This document shows, piece after piece, positions 50,894-62,773 of a stretch of DNA of 64,000 bases (its first letter is position 1; the number at the start of each line of letters is the position of its first letter). A model generated the notes under the pieces. That model searched no databases. It was not told where the DNA came from and saw only the letters and a program-made list of their open reading frames with translations. The position numbers and the translations under genes were made by a program. This DNA comes from an uncultured Clostridia bacterium (lineage in GTDB: Bacteria > Bacillota > Clostridia > Oscillospirales > QAMX01), in assembly GCA_944376195.1 (NCBI GenBank), contig CALWBW010000004.1, positions 1-64,000 of the forward strand. Direction: 5' to 3'.

Positions 50894-50922
50894 AAAAGGC
50901 CGGGCAAATTGCCCGGCCTTTT
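50894..50922. terminator. Terminator of glnN-asnB (bidirectional)
   Basis: AAAAGGCCGGGC/GCCCGGCCTTTT stem at 50894-50922. The minus-strand T-tract follows the asnB stop. Confidence 0.82.
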
Positions 50923-52546: not shown

Positions 52547-54643
52547 TTATTTGACGCTGAACAGCAGTTCCCCGTAAGTCGGGTAGGGCCAATATTTTGA
52601 GGATGTCATCACCTCAGATTCGTCTACCACCGCACGCAGTTCATTCATGGCGGTGAAGACGCGATCCTTATAATAAACAGCCTCGTCTAAAATATCCGTA
52701 ACAGATTTGACACCGATCAACGCGCTGTCCAGTGCCTCAATTTTCTCAGCGATGCAGGCAGTCAGCCCGGAGAGCTGGTTGACGGTCTTTTCTTCAAAAG
52801 AGCAATCAGCAGCAGCGAGGAAATTGCGTTTTGCCAAAGCAGATTCGCAAAGTTCCTTTACATAAGCCGTAATGGCAGGAAGGATGTCACGTTTTGCCAT
52901 ATCGAGCATCGTAAGCGCTTCAATATGGATTACCTTGCTATAGTTCTCCAACAAAATTTCATACCGGGACCGCATTTCACTCTCCGTGAAAACGCCGTGG
53001 CGGGAGAAAAGCTTAATGTTTTTCTCATGCAGGAAATACGGCAGACAATCCGTAGTGGAACGCAAATTCAAAAGGCCGCGGCCTTCGGTCAGTTCCCGGA
53101 TATTATTTTCGTCATAACCATTCCCGTTGAAAATAATGCGTTTATGCTTGCGAATGGTATCACGGATCAGATCATGCAGCGTCGAGGTGAAACAATCGGC
53201 CTGTTCCAGTACATCCGCAAATTCACGCAGCGACTCCGCAACAGCCGTATTGAGAACGATATTCGGCCCGGCAACGGAAGCGGAAGAACCCAGGCTTCGG
53301 AACTCAAACTTATTGCCGGTGAAAGCAAAGGCAGAAGTACGGTTTCGATCCGTAGTATCCTTCGGAAAACGCGGTAACACATGCACGCCAATCTTCATTT
53401 GTACCTTTTCCGGCGCATCATATGAGGCATCGTTTTCAATCGCTTTTAATATATCATTCAGTTCATCGCCCAAGAATATGGAGATGATAGCAGGAGGCGC
53501 TTCATTTGCGCCAAGACGATGGTCGTTTCCGGCAGACGCAACGGAAATACGCAACAAATCCTGATATTCATCCACCGCCTTGATAACTGCACACAGGAAC
53601 AACAAAAACTGTGCGTTTTCATGCGGCGTATCGCCCGGTTCCAGGAGATTCACGCCGGAACCCGTAGAAATAGACCAGTTATTATGCTTGCCGCTGCCAT
53701 TCACGCCCGCGAACGGTTTCTCATGAAGCAGGCACACCAGCCCATGGCGCTGCGCAATTTTCTTCATCACTTCCATTGTCAACTGGTTATGGTCCGTCGC
53801 AATATTCGTCGTAGTAAAAATCGGAGCCAGTTCATGCTGGGCAGGCGCCACCTCATTGTGCTTGGTTTTTGCATAAATGCCAAGCTTCCAGAGTTCCTCA
53901 TCCAAGTCCCGCATAAAAGCTGCCACACGCGGCTTTAAGCTGCCGAAATAATGATCGTCCAGTTCCTGGCCTTTCGGCGGCTTCGCACCGAATAACGTAC
54001 GTCCGGTATAGATCAGATCCGGCCTCTTGTCATACACCTCTTTATCAATCAGGAAGTATTCCTGTTCGGGGCCAACCGTTGTTTTGACGGAATGAACCTC
54101 CGTATTGCCAAACAACTTTAAAATCCGCATGGCCTGACGGTTGATTGCCTCCATGGAACGCAAAAGAGGCGTTTTTTTGTCCAGTGCCTCTCCTCCATAG
54201 GAACAAAACGCCGTCGGAATGCAAAGCGTACCATCTTTAATAAACGCATAAGACGTGGGGTCCCAGGCGGTATAGCCTCGCGCCTCAAAGGTGGCGCGCA
54301 AACCGCCAGAGGGGAAACTGGACGCATCCGGTTCCCCGCGAACCAGCTCTTTTCCGGAGAACTCCATAATGACATTCCCGTCATCCGTCGGGGAAATAAA
54401 GCTGTCGTGCTTTTCCGCAGTAATCCCGGTCATAGGCTGGAACCAGTGCGTGAAATGTGTCGCTCCATTTTCCACTGCCCAGTCTTTCATCGCATTGGCA
54501 ACCACGTTCGCAACGTTTATATCGAGCCGCTTTCCAATTTGTGCGGCCGTTTTCATAGCTTTATAAGTTTCCTTCGGCAGGCGCGCTTTCATCGTTGTGT
54601 CGTTAAACACCAGGCACCCAAAAATTTCAGGAACGTTTGTCAT
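52547..54643 (-). CDS. glnN: Glutamine synthetase type III
   Basis: A 698-residue GSIII, the long form found in Bacteroides, cyanobacteria and clostridia. Key parts are HFTHWFQPMTGITAEKHDSF, VGPEQEYFLID, KTKHNEVAPAQHELAPIF, NGSGKHNNWS and the C-terminal helical region. It fixes ammonia onto glutamate. GGAGGGAG precedes the ATG. It has a perfect sigma-A promoter followed within about 70 bases by an intrinsic terminator in the leader, so expression is probably set by attenuation. Confidence 0.96.
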   Translation of the reverse strand: MTNVPEIFGCLVFNDTTMKARLPKETYKAMKTAAQIGKRLDINVANVVANAMKDWAVENGATHFTHWFQPMTGITAEKHDSFISPTDDGNVIMEFSGKELVRGEPDASSFPSGGLRATFEARGYTAWDPTSYAFIKDGTLCIPTAFCSYGGEALDKKTPLLRSMEAINRQAMRILKLFGNTEVHSVKTTVGPEQEYFLIDKEVYDKRPDLIYTGRTLFGAKPPKGQELDDHYFGSLKPRVAAFMRDLDEELWKLGIYAKTKHNEVAPAQHELAPIFTTTNIATDHNQLTMEVMKKIAQRHGLVCLLHEKPFAGVNGSGKHNNWSISTGSGVNLLEPGDTPHENAQFLLFLCAVIKAVDEYQDLLRISVASAGNDHRLGANEAPPAIISIFLGDELNDILKAIENDASYDAPEKVQMKIGVHVLPRFPKDTTDRNRTSAFAFTGNKFEFRSLGSSASVAGPNIVLNTAVAESLREFADVLEQADCFTSTLHDLIRDTIRKHKRIIFNGNGYDENNIRELTEGRGLLNLRSTTDCLPYFLHEKNIKLFSRHGVFTESEMRSRYEILLENYSKVIHIEALTMLDMAKRDILPAITAYVKELCESALAKRNFLAAADCSFEEKTVNQLSGLTACIAEKIEALDSALIGVKSVTDILDEAVYYKDRVFTAMNELRAVVDESEVMTSSKYWPYPTYGELLFSVK

Positions 54644-54672
54644 GGATCTCCCTCCGAATTCAAATAAAAAAT

Positions 54673-54706
54673 AAAGGCGCTGCAGCTTTTCCGCTGCGGC
54701 GCCTTT
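54673..54706 (-). terminator. Leader attenuator upstream of glnN
   Basis: On the minus strand a 14-bp stem with one mismatch and a GGAAAA loop (54673-54686 with 54693-54706) is followed by ATTTTTTATTT. It lies between the glnN promoter and its ribosome-binding site. Confidence 0.75.
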
Positions 54707-54723
54707 GCCGTATCCATGTATGC

Positions 54724-54752
54724 ATTATAATCGCAAAAAAGCCGAATGTCAA
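54724..54752 (-). promoter_or_regulatory. Consensus promoter of glnN-asnB
   Basis: TTGACA (54747-54752) and TATAAT (54724-54729) with exactly 17 bases between, a perfect consensus on the minus strand. Confidence 0.92.
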
Positions 54753-62534: not shown

Positions 62535-62773
62535 ATCAGTCACCTCCTAGTGAAATAAAAAAACCTTTTGTCCATGGGCATCCAAAGACAAAAGGGTAAA
62601 GGCAAACCTGTCAATTCATTGGGTCAGCGCCCTCCTCGGTACGGCGGCATCCAAGCCTGTTTCAGAAAAACAAAGTTTTTCCCGTACTGTCTTCGGAAAA
62701 CTCATCGCTGTATTGGGATATAAACATCCTCACACAACAAAAAGTATTATAACAGATTTTCCCCTTTTGTCAA
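62535..62773 (-). promoter_or_regulatory. Promoter and L10 leader of rplJL
   Basis: TTGACA (62768-62773) and TATAAT (62746-62751), 16 bases apart, start a leader of about 200 bases. It ends in an intrinsic-terminator hairpin (CCTTTTGTC at 62564-62572 with GACAAAAGG at 62587-62595, then T-rich 62555-62563). This is the layout of the autoregulatory L10 leader, where L10-L12 binding promotes termination. Confidence 0.8.

Follow-up and report, generated by a model that had tools for sequence, protein, structure and literature searches.

A putative ANTAR-controlled attenuator with a single hexaloop precedes glnN-asnB in an uncultured Oscillospirales bacterium

Here, we describe the glnN-asnB leader of an uncultured Clostridia bacterium from the order Oscillospirales, analysed in a window that comprises positions 1 to 64,000 of contig CALWBW010000004.1 (assembly GCA_944376195.1). 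It combines a consensus promoter, a small hairpin with a hexaloop, and an intrinsic terminator sharing an arm with that hairpin. We consider it likely that this leader is a transcription attenuator governed by an antiterminator with an ANTAR domain, as a variant that employs one hexaloop instead of two. The broader proposition is that such antitermination, lacking the upstream hairpin P1, is an order-wide system with a strong promoter, a hexaloop at the 5' end of the RNA, a distinct clade of ANTAR proteins with pseudo-receivers and a characteristic His, and control of the entire glutamine/ammonia regulon; here we regard the case for and against as evenly balanced.

The genes glnN and asnB lie on the minus strand, and asnB, 29 nt 3' of glnN, is probably cotranscribed with it (Table 1). 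The sequence-only reading of this DNA had claimed a perfect TTGACA-17-TATAAT promoter followed by a leader of about 75 bases with a complete intrinsic terminator ahead of the glnN ribosome-binding site, and all of this was borne out. The promoter matches the consensus at 12/12 positions (54752-54724, minus) and obtained the top score in the 10 kb scanned. Judged from the promoter position, +1 probably lies near 54717, which would place it approximately 74 nt ahead of glnN (ATG at 54643), about 8 nt from the regulatory hairpin and about 11-12 nt from the terminator stem. The terminator, AAAGGCGCCGCAGC-GGAAAA-GCTGCAGCGCCTTT, forms 13 pairs with a single C.A mismatch (-23.3 kcal/mol) and is followed by a U-rich tract; a simple consensus terminator scan missed it, the internal mismatch being the probable cause. 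The whole leader folds at -25.9 kcal/mol (z = -2.9), and 1 of 200 shuffles folded equally well. Two further perfect TTGACA-N16..18-TATAAT promoters were detected in the window, at 62773 (minus) and 18763 (plus), and the scan found no A1/G4 hexaloop-terminator behind either of them. A leaderless 25-aa ORF near +1 (54718-54644), overlapping the glnN ATG (ATGA), was without a match in Pfam and was rejected, as inspection showed that it is not kept in locus L004 of the same genus.

Table 1. Features of the glnN-asnB locus (coordinates refer to the window)
Feature	Position	Strand	Basis
-35 hexamer TTGACA	54747..54752	minus	12/12 promoter match with TATAAT, 17-nt spacer
-10 hexamer TATAAT	54724..54729	minus	12/12 promoter match
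Antiterminator mini-hairpin CGGC[AAAGGC]GCCG, A1/A2/G4 hexaloop, putative ANTAR site	54697..54710	minus	Folding, covarying stem
Intrinsic terminator stem-loop	54673..54706	minus	Folding; pairing conserved in relatives
Terminator U-rich tract ATTTTTTATTT	54661..54672	minus	Sequence
glnN RBS GGAGGGAG	54648..54655	minus	Inspection
glnN, type III glutamine synthetase, 698 aa	52547..54643	minus	Pfam GSIII_N 1.3e-81, Gln-synt_C-ter 9.6e-38
asnB, glutamine-dependent asparagine synthase, 525 aa	50940..52517	minus	Pfam Asn_synthase 4.5e-72, GATase_7
Intrinsic terminator closing glnN-asnB, 13 bp stem	50894..50922	minus	Terminator scan

As published, the ANTAR target consists of two hexaloop hairpins, P1 and P2, which are 5-12 nt apart in natural E. 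faecalis leaders, and the hexaloops bound by ANTAR proteins have A as their first and G as their fourth base (PMC3369931). In the glnN leader, a hexaloop with A1 and G4 caps a stem of 3 bp or more, as the ANTAR-target definition of Ramesh 2012 demands, and it overlaps and excludes an intrinsic terminator in the manner defined there for P2. The hairpin alone is worth -5.2 kcal/mol, compared with -23.3 for the terminator. From 54706 on, the hexaloop and the 3' arm of the mini-hairpin double as the 5' arm of the 13-pair terminator stem. Due to this shared arm, the two structures are mutually exclusive, which leaves a brief window for intervention: when growing 5' fragments were folded, the mini-hairpin was present from 22 nt to approximately 36 nt and the terminator from approximately 40 nt. 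This anatomy fits the single-hexaloop minimal motif (PMC8934654), marking the hairpin as a candidate site for an ANTAR dimer. The sequence-only reading mentioned neither the hexaloop nor its occurrence as a single copy. It had considered a small ligand as the regulator, an option that did not gain support, considering that Rfam yielded no match at the gathering threshold in the window or in 14 related loci and that no structure was conserved beyond the hexaloop hairpin and the terminator. Sub-threshold Rfam matches to sRNAs were dismissed as chance.

A covariance search of the leader in relatives had been suggested by the same reading. We gathered glnN leaders from 62 related genomes and scanned them for A1/G4 hexaloops that overlap a terminator; hexaloop hairpin plus terminator were present upstream of glnN in 31 of them. 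When any loop sequence was allowed, 46 of 65 terminator-overlapping hexaloops were of the A1/G4 type, as against 0.2 per shuffled set. Across 41 aligned units, no variation occurs at A1, A2, G4, or the closing C-G pair (of these, the scanner itself demanded only A1 and G4), and the loops mostly read AANGRN. Stems vary by compensating pairs (AAGGC/GTCTT, CAGC/GCTG, CGGC/GCCG, and GAGAC/GTCTC), with a covariation score of 0.424 versus 0.216 in shuffles; because the scanner demands a paired stem, the percentage of paired positions is partly circular, and what carries information is the switching between pair types. Among relatives, the terminator stem likewise carries compensating changes. At least 9 of 12 promoter positions are matched in 29 of the 31 element-bearing leaders, 21 of these being perfect, and recurrence of the promoter-hairpin-terminator architecture in tens of relatives is far beyond chance. 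A second collection of glnN loci, whose genomes are partly shared with the first, contained the element in 52/78 leaders, 50 of them with a single copy. It was also found in Ruminococcus sp. FMBCY1, Clostridium sp. AT4, and Neglectibacter timonensis, the last with two tandem units. Many relatives are publicly labelled Oscillospiraceae or Ruminococcus, and the nearest public GlnN match (92% identity) belongs to a metagenome-assembled genome labelled Clostridiaceae bacterium MB2.102. A covariance model built from the hexaloop units found further copies; plain terminators reach approximately 36 bits in this model, rendering it too unspecific alone, and a hexaloop test was therefore added. Of seven exact-word matches to GGCAAAGGCGYC in the genome, six were set aside as lying within coding sequence and not representing elements, as were chance matches in L075 and, far upstream, in L007.

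What distinguishes these leaders is the missing P1. No hairpin with A1 and G4, the P1 of the Ramesh 2012 definition, was found within 30 nt upstream of the window unit. Among 42 units, P1 candidates appeared in four, all with 3-bp stems and scores of 6-7, that is, weak and attributable to chance. As a positive control, the same test on eut leaders returned 9-10 clear P1 hairpins, mostly scoring 11-21 with linkers of 2-15 nt, and ANTAR loci of other Clostridia gave many more. Flags for a strong P1 in three loci of the second collection (L280, L285, and L307) turned out to be the -10 box itself. In 29 of the 31 element-bearing leaders, those with a near-consensus promoter, the -10 box and the hairpin stem are 6-13 nt apart; the hairpin would thus begin at about +1 to +8, leaving P1 without room. 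Over the full leader length, a single AAnG hexaloop was found in 17/31 leaders. The remaining 14 hold two or more, mostly as two complete attenuators in series in which each hexaloop has its own terminator at a spacing of approximately 65-120 nt, the second hexaloop being doubtful in two. In other Clostridia, five loci (L245, L247, L250, L251, and L253) carry an agggc[AACGGC]gtcct-type unit and its terminator about 100 nt 3' of the ANTAR domain. No P1 was found in the 30 nt preceding these units; they are possible single-hexaloop sites outside the order, and for this reason the boundary of the type may not coincide with that of the order.

The source genome carries four elements, ahead of glnN-asnB in the window, of glnA-ANTAR1-gltB-gltD, of amtB::PII-carA (where the element sits between gltD and amtB), and of ANTAR2-pyrG. 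Their position ahead of all four units suggests a regulon for glutamine and ammonia to which the regulators themselves belong. In relatives, the same hexaloop unit precedes amtB, asnB, asnA, pyrG, and ANTAR genes, these downstream genes being named from sequence without a family search. The glnA-ANTAR-gltB-gltD-amtB-carA cluster of the source genome includes an ammonium transporter ORF with a C-terminal PII domain (AmtB::GlnK; Pfam Ammonium_transp and P-II; L190:1393-3132, contig C3, minus). On another contig (C66, L222, minus), the ANTAR2 gene stands behind a single-hexaloop attenuator of its own, ATGGAC[AACGGC]GTTCAT, and the gene after it is pyrG, encoding CTP synthase, another glutamine user; an identical leader occurs in L095 and a similar one in L093. 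In this genome, the switch is thereby linked to glutamate synthase and the two glutamine synthetases, to the ammonium transporter, and to amidotransferases that use glutamine. It represents a candidate circuit by which bacteria abundant in gut and rumen may control nitrogen metabolism.

The sequence-only reading had offered an ANTAR antiterminator as its main example of a regulator and proposed a search for its gene. Two ANTAR genes above the Pfam cut-off were identified in the source genome, one in the glnA-gltBD operon and one preceding pyrG. Together with the A1/G4 hexaloop and the presence of the element on ANTAR units, the co-occurrence of the two across genomes gives this suggestion good support: a Pfam ANTAR gene was present in 31/31 element-bearing genomes versus 12/31 without a detected glnN element (Fisher, 7e-8), and at the genus level, which corrects for phylogeny only in part, ANTAR was present/absent in 24/0 with the element versus 7/11 without (P = 7e-6). 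The 12 ANTAR-bearing genomes without a detected glnN element indicate that the link is not one-to-one. In many relatives, an ANTAR gene lies within approximately 10 kb of glnN. Covariance-model matches elsewhere than at glnN contained the hexaloop in 16/19 cases in ANTAR-bearing genomes versus 3/12 where no ANTAR was detected (P = 0.002), the three exceptions being fragmentary assemblies (55% and 60% complete, and one in approximately 410 contigs). In genome G001 of the same genus, no ANTAR gene was found, and its glnN leader (L223) has kept promoter and terminator and lost the A1/G4 stem register. This single case hints that the regulator was lost and its site then decayed.

ANTAR2 can be aligned along its length with Rv1626 and EutV. 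The phospho-acceptor Asp has been lost, mostly to Asn, in 24/26 ANTARs of the order and is present in 22/30 from other Clostridia (P = 5e-7), and the position of EutV Tyr164, the residue that stacks on loop G4, is His in 26/26 versus Tyr/Phe in 28/30 (P = 1e-13); the comparison set consisted of the 30 best-scoring loci, a choice biased toward canonical proteins, and the ANTARs of the order group as one clade (support 100/98), so that both differences may have arisen in one evolutionary step and the P values should not be read as independent counts. The His is shared with AmiR and hence does not by itself define the single-hexaloop type. An equivalent of Met172 is present in 56/56 ANTARs examined. 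The degenerate receivers would be consistent with phosphorylation-independent regulation, the signal probably arriving via a partner protein or a metabolite.

We propose that the strong, probably constitutive promoter launches a transcript in which, judging from sequence and folding, the initial ~22 nt form the mini-hairpin with the AAAGGC loop. Left unheld, this hairpin would, going by the folding energies, surrender its loop and 3' arm to the far stronger terminator, and transcription would stop ahead of glnN. Upon nitrogen limitation, an ANTAR protein would probably bind the hexaloop as it emerges from RNA polymerase; a hairpin held in this way would block the terminator and allow transcription of glnN-asnB. 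The P1 recruitment hairpin would be dispensed with, the single hairpin standing at the very 5' terminus of the transcript. It is tempting to speculate that the signal derives from, e.g., glutamine synthetase or the AmtB-fused PII domain. With one hexaloop, the time limit might be met if autoregulation kept ANTAR levels high, if the dimer formed beforehand, or if pausing occurred early. If the order-wide P1-free class is real, the dual-hexaloop need of EutV is not general and the time limit of antitermination can be met in another way.

Several other explanations have to be considered. In E. faecalis eutP, the sole system tested by mutation, both hexaloops are required: induction was abolished by deletion of P1 and was lost or fell sharply on changes to the linker (PMC3369931), and a linker 20 nt longer blocked antitermination (PMC8934654). 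By these data, one hexaloop might be poorly effective or depend on a partner that has escaped notice, and we regard it as unlikely, though worth weighing, that the leader is a dual site in disguise, with its second hexaloop supplied by a transcript initiated farther upstream, by a non-canonical P1, by the adjacent tandem unit, or in trans by another nascent transcript. Tandem units, found in up to 14 of the 31 leaders, would lend themselves to this, but they are split by a full terminator and stand far beyond the linkers tolerated by EutV (5-12 nt in nature; PMC3369931). Moreover, near-consensus promoters so close to the stem should fix the start sites, the 30 nt upstream of the window unit are free of an A1/G4 hairpin, and 17 leaders possess one hexaloop in total.

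Reading of the hexaloop by a non-ANTAR RNA-binding protein or a small ligand would agree with the ANTAR-bearing genomes in which glnN has no detected element. We consider this improbable in view of the A1/G4 signature and the complete co-occurrence with ANTAR genes, which carry the element in their own leaders and in one instance share an operon with glnA; in addition, no Rfam riboswitch at the gathering threshold and no conserved pocket besides the hairpin were found. A strong promoter and a terminator could also simply tune glnN output, as a constitutively leaky terminator or a 5' stability hairpin, and G001 retains just these two parts. This is very improbable, since an unregulated terminator would not keep an alternative hairpin with a constant loop on varying, paired stems. 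Finally, the terminated RNA of approximately 50 nt might act in trans, e.g., as an ANTAR sponge, for which the ANTAR-sequestering RNAs EutX and rli55 set a precedent (PMC8934654). We give this hardly any credence, as the hexaloop of such an RNA would be base-paired within the terminator and the site would not be presented. Control by an ANTAR protein acting on one hexaloop thus remains our favored explanation.

Two known ANTAR proteins, Klebsiella NasR acting on the nasF leader and Pseudomonas AmiR acting on the amiE leader, perform antitermination independently of phosphorylation. The ANTARs of the order probably resemble both in this respect, and in the alignment they resemble AmiR in the Tyr164-equivalent His; their sensor domains are different. 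The nasF and amiE targets, unlike the glnN leader, were described as dual hexaloops (PMC3369931). The glnN leader shares with the EutV-controlled E. faecalis eut leaders an A1/G4 hexaloop overlapping the 5' arm of an intrinsic terminator (PMC3369931, PMC8934654), mutually exclusive terminator and antiterminator structures, and a nitrogen-related operon as the controlled unit. It differs from them in lacking P1 and in placing its hairpin at the 5' end, behind a near-consensus promoter, and its presumptive regulators differ from EutV in the mostly missing phospho-acceptor and in the His. ANTAR control of glutamine and glutamate genes is already known in outline: a covariance search uncovered ANTAR regulons of glutamate and nitrogen genes in Desulfotomaculum and Pelobacter (PMC3369931), which, similarly to the regulon described here, comprise several attenuators per genome on genes for glutamine/glutamate synthesis, PII, and ammonium transport. 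The model used in that search requires two hairpins and would have missed one-hexaloop leaders, and we found no description of P1-free ANTAR attenuators in the open-access library searched. In the crystal structure of EutV with RNA, the dimer contacts one hexaloop at a time, and the need for two was left open; the minimal binding motif was redefined as one hexaloop, with both still contacted in turn for antitermination, and the authors called for a bioinformatic study of single-hexaloop sites (PMC8934654). Natural one-hexaloop attenuators without room for P1, in many genomes including those of named strains, make the two-hexaloop question directly testable.
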